From positions 1 to 26,204 of the IMG/VR virus record IMGVR_UViG_3300020204_000325: 26,204 nucleotides of DNA; one strand, given 5' to 3'. The first letter of the stretch is position 1. Every line of letters begins with the position of its first letter. This document shows, one piece after another, positions 1,229 through 11,434 of this stretch. The notes under the pieces were generated by a model that saw only the letters and a program-made list of their open reading frames with translations, made no database searches and was not told where the DNA came from. Made by a program: the position numbers and the translations under genes. This stretch comes from a virus.

Positions 1229-4200
1229 ATGGCAGGAGATGTAAATAGCAACATTTTTATTAATGTTGACACCTCTTCGGCTATGGCACAACTTCGTGCC
1301 CTTGAAAAAGAATTAACTGCTCTTAACCGTGCTCTTGTAATAGGAACAAAGACTGCAGCACAGGCTCAGTCAAAGTATGCACAAGGACTTCTACATAATG
1401 TAAACGCTACTGGTCAGTGGACAGCATCCATGACTAGAATGAGAACTGCAACAGAACAGTTTTCAACAGCACTAGATAGATCTAAATTATCACTTAAAGA
1501 ATATTTCCGTTATGGAATGGCATCTACTAGAACATTTGGTAGGGCATTTGGAAATGAATATAGTACAGTATCAAAACTAGTTGAAAAACGTGTAAAAGTA
1601 TTACAACAACAATATGTTCAGTTAGGACGAGACGCTCAGGGTGCAATGAATGCACTCAAGTTTACACCCAAAGCATTAAACTATAGAGATGTAACAACTC
1701 AGTTAATGATGGCTACGCAACGTCAACAAATTTTCAATAAACTTCTTGACGACGGCTCAACAAAACTTCTAAACTTTGGTAAGAATACACAGTGGGCTGG
1801 TCGTCAGTTAATGGTTGGTTTTACTGTTCCATTACTGCTTTTTGGAAGTCAAGCCATAAGAACATTTAAAGAAATTGAAACTCAAATGATAAGATTTAAA
1901 AAAGTATATGGAGATATCTATACAGATCCAGGTCAAACAGAGCAGGCCCTAAAAAACATAAGAGCGTTGGCAGATGAATATACAAAATATGGTGTTAAGG
2001 TTGCAGATACACTTAAGATGGCTGCAGATGCAGCAGCAGCAGGTAATTCTGGAAAAGATTTAGAACAAATTGTAGAACAAACAAACCGACTTGCAGTTCT
2101 CGGTGGAGTTACACAAGAAAAAGCACTTGAAACCACAATTGCATTAAAGAACGCATTCCAAGTTGGAGCAAATGATTTAGATCAAACAATTAACTTCCTT
2201 AACGCAGTTGAAAACCAGACTGTTGTTGCTCTTGAAGATTTGACAGAAGCGATTCCTCGTGTTGCTCCAGTTGTAAAACAACTAGGTGGAGACGTTAAAG
2301 ATCTTGCATTCTTTATGGCTGCTATGCAAGAAGGTGGTATTAGCGCAGCGCAGGGTGCTAACGCATTAAAATCTGGTCTTGGTTCTTTAATTAATCCAAG
2401 CAAGAAGGCATCAGAAGCAGCAGCAGAAGTTGGAGTTAATATAAGAGGAATTGTTGAGGCAAACCAAGGCAATCTAAGAAACATTGTTGTTGGCTTTGCT
2501 CAAGCACTACAGCCATTAACAGACTTGCAGCGTACCAGGGTTATTGAAGATGTTTTCGGTAAGTATCAGTTTGCACGTATATCAGCACTTTTAAATAACG
2601 TTACAAAAGAAGGAACGCAGGCTGCAAGAGTATTACAACTTGCAAATGCCTCTGTAGAAGAACTAGCAATCTTATCTGAACGAGAATTGGGAGTTCAGGC
2701 AGACTCTGCAATGAATAAATTCGCTGGTGCAGTAGAAAGACTTAAGGCTGCAGTTGCCCCAATAGGAGAAATATTTGCTAAAACATTAACTCCAGCAATT
2801 GAATTTATTACAAAAATGTTTGAAAGATTTAATAAACTTCCAGAAGGAATTAAAAAGGGTATTGCAGTAATTACTGCTGTTGTTGGAGGGCTTGGACCAA
2901 TATTTTTAATGACATTTGGCTTGCTTGCTAACGCTCTTGCTAACACAATGAAAGGATTTAATTTACTTCGTAAAGGATATCAACAGTTGGCACACGGATC
3001 TTCTGATGCTGCCCTAAAAACACAGTACCTAACAAATGAAGAACTAGAAAATATATCTGTTACAAATTCTTTATATTCTACACATGAAAGACTTTCTGCA
3101 GCATATAGGATAGAATCAACCGCCCTTGGAGCATTGATTGCTCAGTATGGCACTGCAACAAGTGCGATGAGAAACTTTTCAATGGCTAATCCAGGACTAT
3201 TTGTTCCTGGCAGAGTTGTTCCTCCAATTCGTCGTGCAGGTGGCGGTACAGTAAGTGGTCCAGGAACATCTACATCTGATTCTATTCCAGCATATTTATC
3301 TGATGGAGAGTATGTAGTAAATGCTAAAGCAGTAAAGCAGTATGGCGTAGATACGTTTGATGCAATGAATGCAAGAAAGTATTCTAGTGGTGGACCAGTT
3401 ATCGGTAAAGATGGAATACCTCGTTTATTTGGTGGAGGATTTTATAGAAGAATTTTGGACGCAATGCTTCCAAAAACCAGACTGGGTGTTGTTCAAGCAG
3501 GTGCAAGCGGATATGATATATCTGGTTTTGGCACAGGAGGTAGACCAAGAGTCGGTGTTGTAGTACCTCCTAGTTCAGCACGTGTAGGAGGATCTCGCCC
3601 ATTAGTATTTACCGAAGATCCTAGTGGAAAAATTAAAGTTGCTTTAAGAGATGATCCAAATAGTTTCTTTTATATAGAAGCAAGGAAAAGATTAAGTTTT
3701 GAAAATTCTATTGATAGTCATGTAGTGGAAAGAATGTCTCGTGGAGATAGTGCAGAAAAAATTTATAACAACTTTAGAGAGCAAATGCTTAGAAATAGAA
3801 GAAGTTTTAGAGGTCAGCCTATTCTTGGAAGAACAGAAACCCCATCAAAATTTTTGTTTGGATTAACTGGATATAAAAAATCTGCATCTAATGCAAAAGG
3901 TGCTCCTCGACATGTTAAAGATGCATTTGAAAAAAAGGCTATAATTTTTGATTCTACAGGGGCGAAAATTGGTTATACCAGAACCAAGGCTGGAGAATTA
4001 TATCAAGAATTAGACAATGAACAAGAAGCAATTAGTAGATGGGTAAGAACTAATGTAGGAAATTTAGATGAAAAACAAATAGCCGCTATAGAAAGATATA
4101 ATAGAGTAGCAGTTTCTCATTTAGATCCTGCAGATAGCCATTTGTGGACTCCAAGAACTGGTAGTCGTGATTCTGCTTTAATTAATCAGGCATTAAATTA

Positions 4201-7200
4201 TGAAAAAGGCAGATTCGGGTCTGGAAATCATATTACTAATCAGCAAGAAGCACAATTATTTTTAAATTATTTAGAAAGTAGATATGCACAATTAGGCGAC
4301 ACAATGCCAGGAACTCAATTGGGCGCATTGCAACTTTTAAGGATGAGACTAAAACCAGACACGAATGGTAAAACATTTTATAAAAGACATGGAATAAAAG
4401 ATACTCAATTAAATTTACAATATACTTCAGTAAGACAAAATCCTGCAACAAAAAAATACTATAACGTAGATAAATTTGGAAATGCCACAACTGAATATGC
4501 AATGGGTGGAGCAGTTCAAAAATATGCAGGCGGAACGACATTTGTTGGTATGCCAAAATCATTTACAAAAGTGCTACAAACAAGAGCGCTTGCAGAAAAA
4601 TTAAATGAGGCAGTTAATGCAAGTAGATTTAAAAATCTTCCAATAACAGATACTGGAGTAAAACTAAAGGATCTTGGAGGCTTTAGTGTTGGAGAAATTT
4701 CAAGAGCAGTAAATGGAGTTTATAAACATCCAGATGGCAGAACTGTAGTTTATAAGGCTGTAGAAAGTGAAGAGGCTGCGCTGGCTGAAATGAGAATGGC
4801 TGCTTTAATGAGAGGTGGCAGTGAACTTAAAACTCCAATGAATCAGTCAATAAAAGTTATTGCTGACCCAACAGATCTAACAAGAAAAAGAAAAATTCTT
4901 GCTATAGAGTCAGACTACGACCCAAGATTTGAAAATCCAACGGGAGAATTTACCAAGAAACAATTTATTAAGCAAACATTGGCTGCTGGTATTCGTGGGG
5001 ATAAGGATGTTAAGAGATCAAACATTAGCGGAGACGATGTAATAGATCAGGGCAACTCTGGAGTATTTGGTACTGCATCAAGTAGATTTAAATATGCAGA
5101 TAGCATGAAGACAATAGAAGAGCAATTGTTAATAAACTTTGGCGCAGTAAAAGGTGGTGCTTCAAAAGATTTTGTAAAGGCTGTTAGAAAGATGGCCAAA
5201 ACAATGGGTTATTCAGCATTTAAAAACGCAATGCTTAAAGAAATTGAAGAGTCTATTCCTAGATATAAAGCAACCATTAACTCATTTAAATTAAATCCAC
5301 AAGAAAGAAAAATATATGATGATTTGGTTGTTCGTTTAGAAAATTCTAAAAATGCAGACTGGAGGAAAGTTTACAATGCTGCTGCTGGAATTCCAGGATA
5401 TGAGGATGGAGTATTTTCTGTACCTGGCCCAAAAGGTGCTGGCGATGTAGTCCCTGCAATGCTTTCTCCAGGAGAAGCCGTAGTTCCAGCAGATCAATCA
5501 CAAAAGTATAGACCACTTATTAAATCAATTATTGCAGATAATGTCCCTGGATATGCAGGATCTAATATCGATGATTGGGGGGACGACGATACTCCAAAAA
5601 GAGGAGGGTCCTATGATAGAACCAGAGTTGATCGTTTCCAAACACGAATGGAAGCAAAGATTGACAGAGCGGCAGACAGATTTGTTGGAACAAGAGTTGG
5701 CGGTTGGATTGATAGAAAGGTAAGACAAAAACAAGAAAGAGAAGATGCTGCAAGAAACGCAGCAAGAGCATCAGCCAGAGCAGTTCCAATGCCAGCATTT
5801 TCAGACTTAAAAGAATCTATTGATAAAAATACTAAGGCTGCTAATGATTCTACAGATGCTTCTAAGAAAAATACACGTGGTGTTTTGCAAAGACTTGGTT
5901 TTGATAGAGGTAATTTAAGTGAGGCAGAAAGATTAGAGAGAACACGAGGTGGCCGTGGATTTTTAAGAGGATTTGCTCCAGTTGCTGACTTTGATAGGAC
6001 TGTAACAAAAAATGGTAAAGAAAAATTTACACTAGCATCATCAGCACAAAAAACTAATGCAAGACAATTAGACAGAATGAATCGTTCTCAAAGACTTGCT
6101 ATGCCATCTATGGGCGTCGCTATGGCCACATCAATGGCTGGAATGTATGCGATGAGCAACCCTGACAAACAGTTTATGGGTATGAACTTAGGACAACTAT
6201 CTGGTCCATTAATGGGAGTATCTATTCTTGCTGGATTATTACCAATGCTTAATAGTCCAATAAAAATGTTAATTGCAGGAGTAGTTGGTCTTGCTGCAAT
6301 ATTTAAGATGCAATCTGCTCAAATTAAACAATCTATTTTAGATGGTCGTGAACAAGGAAAGACTTTACTTACTACAAAAGAGTCATTAGAGGAATTTGGC
6401 AATATCACCAATACTGTGTCTAAAACACAAATAGCAGAAAATGTTAGGGCTTCTAGGACAACAGAAATTGTTCCAGTTAGCATGGATTTTGGTAAAAACT
6501 TTATACTTAATAGTGATTTTGGTAAAAAGTTTCAAGCAGATCTTCAAAAAAATATAGAAACTTTTGGCAAACCTATTGCAGCACAAGTGCTTGGAAATCA
6601 ACTTGCAACAGCAGTTAGTCAAAAAGTTTTAACTGAAGAGCAAGCACAGTCAATCGCAATAGCACTTACTAGAGATCTTAAAGATGCAACATTTGAAATG
6701 CAGGTTCGTGGTAAATTAATTGAACTATTAGGACCCGATGGTAAAAATGTAATAACAGATCCAATAGAGTTGCAATTAAAATTAATATCTAATAAAAAAC
6801 AAATACAGCAAGAAACATTTAAAAATTTGCAAGAAGTCATATCAAGAGAAAGAAATGGGCTTGCTGGATTAGGCGGAAAAGAAGCATTGGCGATGGGTCT
6901 TTCAACAATACCTGCTGCTGGTGCAGGCGCTCTTGCAACTGGAGCGATGTATCGTGGAAAGGTTGTAAATTATAACTTACGACGTGCAGAGGAATTAGCA
7001 TTTAAAGGAAAACGTGCACAACAATTTATGGCTGCTACAGAAATGGCAAGAGGATCTGGAAAGTTGAATATGGCTGCTAATGCAGTTAGAGGTTTAAGGG
7101 TAGGAACACAGATTGCTGGTGCAGGAGCAACTGCAACTGGCGTAGGAGCAGTACCTGGTTTAACCTCTATTATTTTAGGAACTGTTATTTTTGGAGGTAT

Positions 7201-10200
7201 TGAAGCAGGTTTACGTGCATGGCAAAAGGGTAATGAAAAGAAAGCAATTGGAAAGGCTGCGGGAATATACTCTGGAGTCACAACAGAACTACTTAAATCA
7301 ACTCAACAAGGCCTTGACGCTATGAATGCACAGATAGATGATTCAGTTAAGATTCTTGAGGCTAAAAAAAGAATAGCAAAAACTTCGCAAGAGACTGCAG
7401 ATTTAGAAGGACAAATTGCAGTTCTTGAGCAGCAAAGAGCGCAGGGTATAAACAAAATATATGCACAACAGGTTGAAATATTAAATAACCTTGAAACATC
7501 TTTTAATCAGATAGGAAAGTCAACATTTTTTGAAACAATTAGTCCATTTGGAACTGGTCGTGGACAACTTCGTACCAAGTTCTTGGAGTCATTCCAAGAA
7601 GGAACTGATCTTAAATTTAAAAAAGATCCAATAAGTAAAATGTATGTTGAAAGAATGCGTAAAGATTTACAAAAGACTGAATCCATTCAAGGATCTGGAG
7701 GGTCTTCTAGTGCTGCAGCAATGGCATACAATGAACGTCAAAAAGTAGCAAGTGATGTTATAACATTAAAGATAGAAGCACTAATTAACTCAGATGTTTT
7801 AACTGCAGAGCAGGCAGCAGAGGTAGTGTCTAATTTATCTGGTGATAGAGTATTGGCTCAAAAAGAATTAGAAACAATTATTACAGTGCATGGTACAGAG
7901 GGTCTTCAAAGAATGGCTATTCTACAACAGTATATTCCAAAAGAAAAAAATAAGAAAAATCTTCAACTCATGATTCAGTCTTCTAACAGACAAGATGCTA
8001 ATGAAATGATGTCTGCTTTAGAAGAATTGGTAAAACTTCCTTCCTACCTCGGATTTGATATTAACATTGAAACACAAAAAGGAGACATGGAAAGACTTGA
8101 GGGTGTTGGCGAAGAAATTTCAGATCTAAAGAAAATGATTCCAAATGGTCAAATAAGTTTAAAAATATTACAAGATGTACAGCAAAAACTTGGAGGGCCA
8201 GGTAAAAACCTTACATTAGATGCTGCAATTGCACAATGGGAAACATTATCTAAATTACCTAAAAATTTACAGTTTAATGCTATGATCACATTGGGAAGTA
8301 TTCAGCAAAGTGATAGTTTTGATAAAATACTTGATAGAGAATTAGAGGCAGCATTTTATAAGGCAAATCCAACACTTCAAATGAGTTTTGTTGATCCAGA
8401 AAAAGAAAAATCAAAAAAGGCAGCATTAGCAGCATTTAAATTAGAACAAAAAAATATAGATGCAGCAACAAAGGCTTACTTTGCAAAAGTTATGCCAGAG
8501 TTATATGGAACTGCTGTTAAGGATACAGTAAAAACTGGAAAAGGCACGGGAGACGGAAAGGGCAAAGGCCCAGATACAAGTTGGCTATCTGAGTTATTAC
8601 AAAGACTTAAATTATTAAAAGAAGGAAGCATTGATGCAACAGGCTCTATGAAACAATTACTGGGTCAGGTTACAAAATTCTTTGGACCAGGATTGATGTC
8701 TTCGGTAAATCCTTCGTTAGATAAAACTAGGGGAGCACTTTTACAAATTGAGCAGGCTGCTAAAGCGGCTGGAATAACTTTATCGACAGAATTTGTAGAT
8801 TTTATTGAAGGACTAGATGCTGAAAAGTTTGAAGAATTTAGAGATCGCTTCTTATCAATGAGTAACGGAAAAATAGTTGGATTTAAAGGAACAAGCAGTC
8901 AGTTCTTTGGATCTGATGCAGCATATGATCGCAGACAAAAAGCAATAAAAGCAGGAACATTTGACGGATCTCAGCAAAGTCTGTTCGGCCAAGTAAACGA
9001 GGCTTTTAGAACAAAAACAATAGCAGAATTTATTAAAAAACAACAAGACTCTATTAAAGAGAGTAACCTTCAGGTTGAAGCATTTAGAAAATTAACCGAC
9101 GCAACTGGAGAATTTAAATTTGATGCCATGGCAGCAATGGAAGTATTAAAAGATCCAGCCCTGGCTAAGGAAATAGCCCTTGGAAAAAAGATTTTTAGTC
9201 CAGAAGAAAGAGAAGCAATAATTACTTCTATCAATAAAACATATGCAGCAGCATCTGCTTTATCTAAAATTAAGATGATTCAAGATACCGAAGGATTGCA
9301 AAATCAAGTAAAGGCTTTTGATAAGTTATCAGCAGCAGGATATGATTATGCCACTATACTTAAGGTAATAGAAAATGAGGCATATGCCTACGAGATTGCT
9401 AAGGATGGGGTTGACGGTTTATCGGATTCTACAAAGGCTTTAGTAAAAGATACAAAAAATTATATTGATGCACTAACAACCTTAGAGAATACGAAGTTTT
9501 TTGAAGAAAGAACTAACGCTCTTAAACTTAAACAAGATTTTGCTGCAATTGCTCCGTTACTAGTACAGGCAGGAGCAAGTTTATCAGACATACAAGAAAT
9601 ATTAAGCAACCCTAACTTAGCAAAGGCATTTATACAAGAACTTCAAGATGGATCGCTAGATGCTGGAAGAATTAAAGAATATTTAGATCAAATTCCAGAT
9701 TTTAAACAAGTTGACGTAGAACTTAGAATTTCTACAAGAGAGGGTCAGGAAGAGGAGTTTGATAAGTTATTTAGTAAGGCCATGGAATATTATGACTTGC
9801 TAGAAGATAAAATTGAAGATGATTTTGAGCCATTGCTTAAAAATGCTCAAGATGCAATTGATGCCACACAGGAAAAAATTGAAGGTATTAATGATGAAAT
9901 TCAAAAATATCAAGATGAGATTGATGTAAAGCAAAGAAAGATTGAAATAGAAATAACAAGACCTATTGAGATTTTACAAAAAGATTCTGCTGAATTAGCC
10001 AACGATCTTGAGTTAATGAATGTAAGTGCAGATGAGATAACCAAGAAATATGACGAACAGGCAGAAGCGCTTACAAAGGTTTTTGAGATAAACTCAAGAA
10101 TTGCTGATCAACAAAAACAACAATTAAATCTTGCAGGTGCTCTATCTCAAGGAGATATTTCCGCAGCAGCAGCAGCAGCGCAAGAACTAAAAGCATCTCA

Positions 10201-11434
10201 ATCAGCAGCAATGCAAGAGGATCAACTCGGTATTTTAAACACTGCAAAACAAACTCAAATTGCAGGCTTAAGAAACAAGGGTGGATTAACTAGGTTACAA
10301 ATTGAAAAACTTCAATTTAATACGAGTCAAAAGATCTATGAACTTGAAAAGAAACGTGATCTTGAATTAATAGAAGTAAGAAAACTAGAAGACGCTATCT
10401 ATAATATTAAGACTGGTAGATTAAAACTTGCTCAAAATGAACTTGATTTAAATAATAAAAATCTTAAATCAATACAAGATCAAAAAAACGCTGCGATTGA
10501 AGCAATAGACAAACAAAGAGAAATTTGGACAGACGCAAAGTTGGCAATTGGTTTTGCAAGGATAGAGGCTGGACACTATAACGATGTTATTGAATTTTCC
10601 AATACACTTGTTACTTTAATGAAAGACGGATGGCTCGGAGTTGGAAATGCTATTCTAGCAGCCGTTTCTGCCCTTGCTCTTTATAATGCAGGACTAAAGA
10701 AGAAGCCACTTACTTTTGAGCAGGCACAGGCACAGGCTCAAAACACTTTAGGTGGTTACTTAAATACTTTTGGTTCTAAACTTGGAAGTGCAGATCAGCA
10801 AATAGTTGGTCTAGAACTTAAGATTGCAGAGGCAATGGAGAAGGGCGAAGATACCTCCGCATTAGAAGCACAGTTGGCTGCTTTAAGGGCATCTACTGAG
10901 TTATTAGCAGACAACATGTATGATGTAGCAAAAACGCTTGATAAGGTTGATAACGCAACAAACATCGCTGCAATTAATAGTGCAGTTTCTACTGCCACCA
11001 GCATCCTAAAAGATCCTTTTGGAGATATTGATGTTGAGTGGGACGGGCCAGTTTGGATTCCTGAAGAAGGTTCTGGCGCAGCAGGAGCAGACTTTGTTCA
11101 GGTAGCATCTAAGGGTGGAATCATAAAACCAAGTTACTTGAAAAAAGGCGGTATGGCAAAATATTTCTTAGGTGGTGGTTTTGCTAAAGGAACAGATACA
11201 GTTCCAGCAATGCTGACTCCTGGAGAGTTCGTAATGAGCAGATATGCTGTAAATGCTCACGGAGTAGAGAAAATGAGAGCAATTAATGGCGGGGCATCAA
11301 TTGGAGACTCAGTGTATAATTATAGTATTAGTGTTAATGTTAAGTCTGATGCAAATCCAGATGAAATTGCTAGAGTGGTAATGACACAGATTAAGCAAGT
11401 AGATTCTAAGAGATTGAGGGGGGCAAGTCTATAA
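1229..11434 (+). CDS. Tail tape-measure protein with embedded accessory domains
   Basis: At 3401 residues this is the largest gene here. It sets tail length and is ejected during DNA delivery. Residues about 215-430 resemble the TP901-type tape-measure core, including ADEYTKYGVKVADTLK, NAFQVGANDLDQTINF and AMQEGGISAAQGANALKSGL. Hydrophobic segments lie near residues 545-575, 1650-1690, 1900-1925 and 1955-1990. Three Gly/Pro modules share D-x-(V/I)-P-A-x-L-(S/T)-x-G-E at residues 671-722, 1390-1433 and 3315-3356. Between the first two sit an unrecognised part (about 790-1090) and a kinase-like part (about 1155-1385). Residues 2850-3150 contain strongly predicted coiled coil. ATG 1229 follows AGGAGG (1217-1222), and its stop overlaps the next ATG. 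The 0.15 nm per residue rule gives roughly 400-510 nm of tail. Confidence 0.95.
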   Translation: MAGDVNSNIFINVDTSSAMAQLRALEKELTALNRALVIGTKTAAQAQSKYAQGLLHNVNATGQWTASMTRMRTATEQFSTALDRSKLSLKEYFRYGMASTRTFGRAFGNEYSTVSKLVEKRVKVLQQQYVQLGRDAQGAMNALKFTPKALNYRDVTTQLMMATQRQQIFNKLLDDGSTKLLNFGKNTQWAGRQLMVGFTVPLLLFGSQAIRTFKEIETQMIRFKKVYGDIYTDPGQTEQALKNIRALADEYTKYGVKVADTLKMAADAAAAGNSGKDLEQIVEQTNRLAVLGGVTQEKALETTIALKNAFQVGANDLDQTINFLNAVENQTVVALEDLTEAIPRVAPVVKQLGGDVKDLAFFMAAMQEGGISAAQGANALKSGLGSLINPSKKASEAAAEVGVNIRGIVEANQGNLRNIVVGFAQALQPLTDLQRTRVIEDVFGKYQFARISALLNNVTKEGTQAARVLQLANASVEELAILSERELGVQADSAMNKFAGAVERLKAAVAPIGEIFAKTLTPAIEFITKMFERFNKLPEGIKKGIAVITAVVGGLGPIFLMTFGLLANALANTMKGFNLLRKGYQQLAHGSSDAALKTQYLTNEELENISVTNSLYSTHERLSAAYRIESTALGALIAQYGTATSAMRNFSMANPGLFVPGRVVPPIRRAGGGTVSGPGTSTSDSIPAYLSDGEYVVNAKAVKQYGVDTFDAMNARKYSSGGPVIGKDGIPRLFGGGFYRRILDAMLPKTRLGVVQAGASGYDISGFGTGGRPRVGVVVPPSSARVGGSRPLVFTEDPSGKIKVALRDDPNSFFYIEARKRLSFENSIDSHVVERMSRGDSAEKIYNNFREQMLRNRRSFRGQPILGRTETPSKFLFGLTGYKKSASNAKGAPRHVKDAFEKKAIIFDSTGAKIGYTRTKAGELYQELDNEQEAISRWVRTNVGNLDEKQIAAIERYNRVAVSHLDPADSHLWTPRTGSRDSALINQALNYEKGRFGSGNHITNQQEAQLFLNYLESRYAQLGDTMPGTQLGALQLLRMRLKPDTNGKTFYKRHGIKDTQLNLQYTSVRQNPATKKYYNVDKFGNATTEYAMGGAVQKYAGGTTFVGMPKSFTKVLQTRALAEKLNEAVNASRFKNLPITDTGVKLKDLGGFSVGEISRAVNGVYKHPDGRTVVYKAVESEEAALAEMRMAALMRGGSELKTPMNQSIKVIADPTDLTRKRKILAIESDYDPRFENPTGEFTKKQFIKQTLAAGIRGDKDVKRSNISGDDVIDQGNSGVFGTASSRFKYADSMKTIEEQLLINFGAVKGGASKDFVKAVRKMAKTMGYSAFKNAMLKEIEESIPRYKATINSFKLNPQERKIYDDLVVRLENSKNADWRKVYNAAAGIPGYEDGVFSVPGPKGAGDVVPAMLSPGEAVVPADQSQKYRPLIKSIIADNVPGYAGSNIDDWGDDDTPKRGGSYDRTRVDRFQTRMEAKIDRAADRFVGTRVGGWIDRKVRQKQEREDAARNAARASARAVPMPAFSDLKESIDKNTKAANDSTDASKKNTRGVLQRLGFDRGNLSEAERLERTRGGRGFLRGFAPVADFDRTVTKNGKEKFTLASSAQKTNARQLDRMNRSQRLAMPSMGVAMATSMAGMYAMSNPDKQFMGMNLGQLSGPLMGVSILAGLLPMLNSPIKMLIAGVVGLAAIFKMQSAQIKQSILDGREQGKTLLTTKESLEEFGNITNTVSKTQIAENVRASRTTEIVPVSMDFGKNFILNSDFGKKFQADLQKNIETFGKPIAAQVLGNQLATAVSQKVLTEEQAQSIAIALTRDLKDATFEMQVRGKLIELLGPDGKNVITDPIELQLKLISNKKQIQQETFKNLQEVISRERNGLAGLGGKEALAMGLSTIPAAGAGALATGAMYRGKVVNYNLRRAEELAFKGKRAQQFMAATEMARGSGKLNMAANAVRGLRVGTQIAGAGATATGVGAVPGLTSIILGTVIFGGIEAGLRAWQKGNEKKAIGKAAGIYSGVTTELLKSTQQGLDAMNAQIDDSVKILEAKKRIAKTSQETADLEGQIAVLEQQRAQGINKIYAQQVEILNNLETSFNQIGKSTFFETISPFGTGRGQLRTKFLESFQEGTDLKFKKDPISKMYVERMRKDLQKTESIQGSGGSSSAAAMAYNERQKVASDVITLKIEALINSDVLTAEQAAEVVSNLSGDRVLAQKELETIITVHGTEGLQRMAILQQYIPKEKNKKNLQLMIQSSNRQDANEMMSALEELVKLPSYLGFDINIETQKGDMERLEGVGEEISDLKKMIPNGQISLKILQDVQQKLGGPGKNLTLDAAIAQWETLSKLPKNLQFNAMITLGSIQQSDSFDKILDRELEAAFYKANPTLQMSFVDPEKEKSKKAALAAFKLEQKNIDAATKAYFAKVMPELYGTAVKDTVKTGKGTGDGKGKGPDTSWLSELLQRLKLLKEGSIDATGSMKQLLGQVTKFFGPGLMSSVNPSLDKTRGALLQIEQAAKAAGITLSTEFVDFIEGLDAEKFEEFRDRFLSMSNGKIVGFKGTSSQFFGSDAAYDRRQKAIKAGTFDGSQQSLFGQVNEAFRTKTIAEFIKKQQDSIKESNLQVEAFRKLTDATGEFKFDAMAAMEVLKDPALAKEIALGKKIFSPEEREAIITSINKTYAAASALSKIKMIQDTEGLQNQVKAFDKLSAAGYDYATILKVIENEAYAYEIAKDGVDGLSDSTKALVKDTKNYIDALTTLENTKFFEERTNALKLKQDFAAIAPLLVQAGASLSDIQEILSNPNLAKAFIQELQDGSLDAGRIKEYLDQIPDFKQVDVELRISTREGQEEEFDKLFSKAMEYYDLLEDKIEDDFEPLLKNAQDAIDATQEKIEGINDEIQKYQDEIDVKQRKIEIEITRPIEILQKDSAELANDLELMNVSADEITKKYDEQAEALTKVFEINSRIADQQKQQLNLAGALSQGDISAAAAAAQELKASQSAAMQEDQLGILNTAKQTQIAGLRNKGGLTRLQIEKLQFNTSQKIYELEKKRDLELIEVRKLEDAIYNIKTGRLKLAQNELDLNNKNLKSIQDQKNAAIEAIDKQREIWTDAKLAIGFARIEAGHYNDVIEFSNTLVTLMKDGWLGVGNAILAAVSALALYNAGLKKKPLTFEQAQAQAQNTLGGYLNTFGSKLGSADQQIVGLELKIAEAMEKGEDTSALEAQLAALRASTELLADNMYDVAKTLDKVDNATNIAAINSAVSTATSILKDPFGDIDVEWDGPVWIPEEGSGAAGADFVQVASKGGIIKPSYLKKGGMAKYFLGGGFAKGTDTVPAMLTPGEFVMSRYAVNAHGVEKMRAINGGASIGDSVYNYSISVNVKSDANPDEIARVVMTQIKQVDSKRLRGASL
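4690..5385 (+). other. Kinase-like domain embedded in the tape measure
   Basis: Residues about 1155-1385 of the tape measure look like an atypical (HipA/PI3K-like) kinase fold. A Gly-containing strand pair (GGFSVGEISRAVNGVYKHPDG) leads to VVYKAV with K1176, a possible beta-3 lysine. E1187 follows in the next helix. The loop D1260-V-K-R-S-N1265 has the D-x4-N spacing of the PI3K DRHNSN loop, and VIDQG (D1273) stands where the metal-binding Asp would be. A helical tail follows. What is seen is the order and spacing of these residues. The fold and any activity are inferred. The loop His is replaced by Lys, so the domain may be inactive or act differently. Confidence 0.45.

Follow-up and report, generated by a model that had tools for sequence, protein, structure and literature searches.

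A predicted kinase-like domain carried as an exchangeable insert in phage tape measure proteins

Tape measure proteins are usually viewed as molecular rulers that also form membrane channels and bear, at the most, a cell-wall enzyme, and the locus described here raises the question of whether one of them also carries a kinase. The window, i.e. the whole stretch of DNA that we analyzed, comprises 26,204 bases and is a virus record in IMG/VR. Its largest ORF (1229..11434, plus strand, as are all features below; 3401 aa) matched PF10145 (E 8e-29) and PHROG tape measure families with E values down to 1e-92 (phrog_10030), and the PhageMin_Tail core lies in its N-terminus (residues 250-444; 1976..2560). 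The PhageMin_Tail and PHROG matches, together with the location of this giant ORF in a tail operon, identify it as the tape measure. Two hydrophobic segments were found C-terminal to the inserts described below, one at residues 1673-1693 (6245..6307), a possible membrane-inserting part, and one at residues 1969-1994 (7133..7210). On the 3' side of the tape measure the gene order is minor tail genes followed by DnaB, primase, SSB and a DnaE-like DNA polymerase. Given that the polymerase is nearest to those of Streptomyces phages such as BillNye (55%), an actinobacterial host appears likely from sequence comparison, although it is not shown. Upstream of the tape measure, at the usual site of tail-assembly chaperones, two ORFs (110-835 and 880-1203) both match phrog_10504, a family of unknown function, and this common match suggests that they arose by duplication.

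A preliminary description of this DNA, made from the sequence alone, had placed a kinase-like domain at residues ~1155-1385 of the tape measure. The domain is present, but its start had been set too late: the conserved region begins at ~1105 and extends to ~1390 (4541..5398). The five residues named there were all found at the expected codons, i.e. the strand-3 lysine K1176 (4754..4756), the helix-C glutamate E1187 (4787..4789), the catalytic-loop aspartate D1260 (5006..5008), and the putative metal-binding residues N1265 of D-x4-N (5021..5023) and D1273 of D-x-G (5045..5047). The replacement of the loop His of HipA (DxHxxN) was likewise seen as described, the loop reading DVKRSN in the window and DLSxSN in many relatives. 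In a single sequence such a motif is weak evidence and the signature is not significant; the loose K-E-DxxxxN-DxG pattern occurred in 41% of shuffles of the whole protein and in 3% of shuffles of the 286-aa domain. It is conservation in relatives, rather than the pattern in one sequence, that makes the kinase signature significant. We counted conservation on 99 distinct domain sequences, since some of the 163 ORFs recovered represent one contig retrieved twice. Down to a minimum pairwise identity of 34%, the lysine, both aspartates and the asparagine were kept without exception (99/99), and the glutamate in 97 of 99, with Gln in the other two, so that the homologues pass a check that could have refuted the proposal. 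About 42 of the 286 columns are equally conserved, and the probability that five positions named beforehand all fall among them is ~6e-5. Further positions invariant in the 99 copies are G1151 and S1153 in the Gly-rich loop after predicted strand 1 (strand and loop, residues 1144-1155; 4658..4693), E1227 where strand 5 ends, R1256 and D1258 ahead of the catalytic Asp and G1278 after D-x-G, while V1173 ahead of the lysine is kept in 98/99; these sit where the cleft of a kinase is expected. The distance from N1265 to D-x-G, 8 residues, is below that of typical kinases. The dN/dS of the domain, 0.16-0.37, indicates that it is under purifying selection.

To the structure prediction that the preliminary description had called for, the domain responded with a kinase-like fold. 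An AlphaFold2 model based on 59 family members reached a mean pLDDT of 86.5 and a pTM of 0.85, and its order of elements according to DSSP is b1-Gly loop-b2-b3(K)-aC(E)-b4-b5-aE-catalytic loop, followed by a helical C-terminal part to residue 1386. The model thus has a five-strand N-lobe, helix C between strands 3 and 4, a hinge, helix E and a catalytic loop, and the residues that mark membership in the kinase fold (strand-3 Lys, helix-C Glu, the Asp of D-x4-N and the Asp of D-x-G) are in place. Searching the PDB with Foldseek, the best 50 matches listed were all kinase-fold proteins or complexes with one, led by AAK1 (E 7.5e-5). In BFVD the top match was a phage PI3/4-kinase-like protein (E 1.5e-6); other leading matches were large ART- and portal-named phage proteins, one of the portal-named at TM 0.51, and the matches also included HHTV-1 gp13, the PI3/4K protein of HSTV-2 and ordinary viral Ser/Thr kinases. 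As a negative control, the neighbouring module taken through the same AlphaFold2 and Foldseek steps gave no PDB match below E 0.6, with the caveat that its model is less confident (pTM 0.58). Against solved kinases the model reaches TM-scores of only 0.23-0.39, with large rmsd; these low values leave the lobe geometry open and imply that, in the model, the C-lobe or the lobe arrangement is divergent. We consider it very likely that residues ~1105-1390 have a kinase-like fold.

No known kinase family claims the domain by sequence. Pfam, PHROGs and NCBIfam gave no match to it, a Pfam scan of the 59 members found neither HipA nor any other kinase family, and PDB sequence searches matched no kinase. 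A WD-repeat match in the PDB was discarded, as it covered 33 residues, passed on no single stretch and was gone with a larger profile. Alignment by hhalign to HipA and to two halovirus kinase-like proteins was not significant (E 0.02-0.3); the similarity to HHTV-1 gp13 was marginal (E 0.024) and is the only case in which the D-x4-N of both proteins aligned. The placement near HipA and PI3K-like kinases in the preliminary description is supported by the fold and, by eye, by the catalytic loop G[N/D]xDx4N, but not by membership in a sequence profile. The domain resembles HipA and CtkA in its Foldseek matches (4pu4, HipA, E 2e-3, TM 0.39; 3akl, HipA-like CtkA, E 2.6e-3) and in a D-x4-N loop that follows a G-x-x-D-like turn (IGATDGHAKN in E. 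coli HipA). It differs in that it is embedded in a tail protein, lacks the His of the HipA loop DGHAKN and has no detectable sequence homology to E. coli HipA (hhalign E 0.29, misaligned); with no profile match either, membership in the HipA family was rejected. No HipB-like partner was evident among the annotated neighbours, which were not searched in detail.

The PI3/PI4K-like proteins of phages and haloviruses (HSTV-2 gp16, HHTV-1 gp13, proteins of uncultured Caudovirales and the large portal- and ART-named proteins) are among the top BFVD matches (E 1.5e-6 to 2e-3), and their loops LTGNRDIHGGN...VDNG and VGNDDRHYGN...IDSG share a pattern with LRGDKDLSxSN...ADVG of the domain family. Unlike the domain studied here, HSTV-2 gp16 and HHTV-1 gp13 are encoded next to portal, capsid and gpF-like genes, in the head and head-tail part of the genome, and not in a tape measure. 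PF00454 (PI3/PI4-kinase) was not matched at E<=1 by any of the 59 members, whereas HSTV-2 gp16 itself reaches 1.5e-5, and PI3/4K family membership was rejected on this ground. HHTV-1 gp13 (L104 9436-12738), annotated as hypothetical and located just upstream of the gpF-like gene, has the K and D-x4-N...D-x-G motifs and matches the kinase model by fold with E 2.5e-4. Another likeness is to the kinase module of phage polyvalent proteins, which is one domain of a giant protein believed to accompany the phage DNA into the host and which has lost the C-lobe while keeping the catalytic His and, in the final strand of the N-lobe, a conserved Gln (PMC5512222, which does not mention tape measures). In the window the loop lacks a His, strand 5 closes with the invariant Glu E1227, and a helical part continues to residue 1386; membership among the polyvalent-protein kinases was rejected.

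Alignment-based scans of viral contigs yielded 107 and then 229 matching stretches, and the domain is encoded in well over 100 contigs. It was found in tape measure ORFs only: the tape measure N-terminus is present in 156 of the 163 ORFs, the other 7 being cut by contig ends, and all complete ones are at least 1790 aa long. No relative was detected by tblastn among 50,697 records of cultured phages, and two Streptomyces phage tape measures that we examined (2104 and 2096 aa) do not have the domain. Two scans of bacterial and archaeal species genomes, which were pattern-seeded and may miss distant copies, found no copy, whether in a prophage or of the host itself, and the host cannot be assigned from the domain.

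Comparison of close relatives indicates that the domain comes and goes. The closest relative is contig L001 (94%). Six other tape measures (L004, L005, L006, L008, L009 and L012) are 82-91% identical over the first 660 aa and have no kinase, and between L049 and L103 the N-terminus is 97% identical while the kinase is only 53% identical; N-terminal identities with the truncated L130 were left out as artefacts. In this absence and this replacement, both read from sequence alignments, the kinase domain behaves as an exchangeable cassette. Compared with L001, the window shows a dS of 0.07 in the kinase and of 0.35 in the N-terminus, and the module lying between these two is only 45% identical, which marks the tape measure as a mosaic. 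In the window a large insert separates the N-terminal domain from the hydrophobic segment. When close relatives are divided at an anchor in the hydrophobic region, the N-terminal portion measures 1564-1601 aa with the kinase vs 1202-1267 aa without it, and the C-terminal portion 1791-1810 vs 1659-1737 aa.

A repeat with the consensus 'PGxxGxxDxVPAxLSPGExVV' (core 'DxVPAxLSPGEfVV') occurs three times in the window, and two copies border the insert region: 'PGxxxxDSIPAyLSdGEyVV' on the left (residues ~671-706; 3239..3346) and 'PGPKGAGDVVPAMLSPGEAVVPA' on the right (residues ~1391-1436; 5399..5536). The third, 'GTDTVPAMLTPGEFVMSRYAV', is near the C-terminus (residues ~3315-3345; 11171..11263). 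It is plausible that the copies serve as a recombination site; alternatively, they may be a processing or structural element of unknown role. The same region holds a second exchangeable module (residues ~755-1075; 3491..4453), and the kinase is found either before or after it. This module shows an H-N-H pattern with H964 and N986 invariant in 22/22 and H1001 in 21/21 aligned copies at ~20% identity; a nuclease fold could not be confirmed, the AlphaFold2 model being that used as negative control above, without a PDB fold match by Foldseek. A different module follows the kinase in 65 kinase-bearing tape measures (e.g. L052 residues 1214-1386 and L027 residues 1270-1345) and has invariant H, N and HP in the 40/40 copies covering them; no homology was detected between it and the H-N-H module of the window.

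What might a kinase do in a tape measure? The presence, family, conservation, predicted fold and cassette behaviour of the domain were established computationally. Beyond these, and taking the statement loosely as a whole, we lean slightly towards a tape measure that carries a probably active atypical kinase as cargo ejected at infection; activity, ejection and host target are inferred. In the proposed sequence of events, residues ~1105-1390 would form a small atypical kinase inserted between the N-terminal tape measure domain and the hydrophobic or ruler part. This domain would travel in the virion within the tape measure and its segment would be ejected at DNA entry, after which, early in infection, the kinase might modify some component of the host or a target where the DNA enters. 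Since all canonical ATP- and metal-binding positions are kept, an active phosphotransferase is most likely, and we infer activity with reasonable though not strong confidence. That the kinase acts after ejection is likewise inferred, and here we regard the case as evenly balanced. An injected effector fits better than an assembly factor, given that near-identical tails assemble without the kinase, and the exchange of the kinase among close relatives suggests a target that differs from host to host. Against the kinase-cargo reading stand the low TM-scores, the short N-to-DxG spacing, the lack of a profile family or matching PDB sequence, the doubt whether a folded domain fits the tail tube (see below) and the absence of activity data.

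An active kinase could instead work in the producing cell, where it would phosphorylate the tape measure, the tail-assembly chaperones or other tail parts, or be clipped off before or at tail completion. The domain does belong to a structural protein made late, and the part after the insert is of similar length without the kinase, so the insert need not belong to the ruler. Moreover, a folded domain of ~30 kDa may not fit the lumen of the tail tube, in which case it would need to unfold, to remain at one end or to be removed; because of this steric problem, neither activity in the producing cell nor removal ahead of assembly can be dismissed. On the other hand, the tape measures that are 82-91% identical at the N-terminus and lack the domain imply that assembly does not require it, and replacement between near-identical proteins is more easily reconciled with a varying target, for example the host, than with a step of assembly that is conserved. 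We consider a role in the producing cell unlikely on balance. Pseudokinases usually lose some of the catalytic Asp, the Lys and the metal ligands. The replaced loop His, the short spacing and the low TM-scores to active kinases would agree with a pseudokinase, or with a fold that senses ATP or a ligand and serves the tail structurally or as a gate, but none of the 99 sequences has lost the Lys, the catalytic Asp or either putative metal ligand, which renders such a role rather improbable.

The atypical kinase-like superfamily also includes enzymes of AMPylation and glutamylation. Transfer of such a non-phosphate group to the target is conceivable, the active site here being atypical; yet nothing specific points to it and the loop retains D-x4-N and D-x-G, and we give it very little credence. 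Finally, the motif and the Foldseek matches could be misleading and the kinase fold not exist, as low TM-scores and the absence of profile-level homology might suggest. The uniform top 50 PDB matches with E values to 7.5e-5, the clean negative control and the agreement of topology with the five conserved catalytic positions speak against this, and we hardly credit it.

Injection of an enzymatic domain as part of a tape measure would have parallels. Tme, a CIS effector related to tape measures, contains an endonuclease domain (PMC11126660), enterococcal tape measures carry lytic transglycosylase, i.e. cell-wall lysin, domains (PMC10194240), and tape measures contact inner-membrane proteins during injection (PMC13190303). 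Tme and the enterococcal proteins resemble the present case in that a protein of the tape measure type is fused to an enzymatic domain believed to work once ejected, and differ in that the enzyme is an endonuclease or a cell-wall enzyme and not kinase-like. No kinase within a tape measure was found in the open-access literature, a scope that takes in no preprints and only a minority of subscription papers. The MinS1 'kinase domain protein' was rejected as a precedent because it is a separate ORF of 95 aa.

More speculatively, and doubtful as it stands, a large group of uncultured phages could use their tape measures as cargo racks, in which conserved repeats flank interchangeable enzymes (the kinase in active form, the H-N-H nuclease-like module and others) that are threaded into the host along with the tape measure, disarming or reprogramming it before phage genes are expressed. 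If tape measures do widely carry a conserved and exchangeable domain of kinase fold, the length of a tape measure need not equal the length of its ruler, and siphophages would gain a further route by which a signalling enzyme could be delivered at genome entry. Three questions would then be open to direct tests: whether effectors are among the cargo of tape measures, by what means a folded domain gets through the tail tube, and which host process is the first to be affected.
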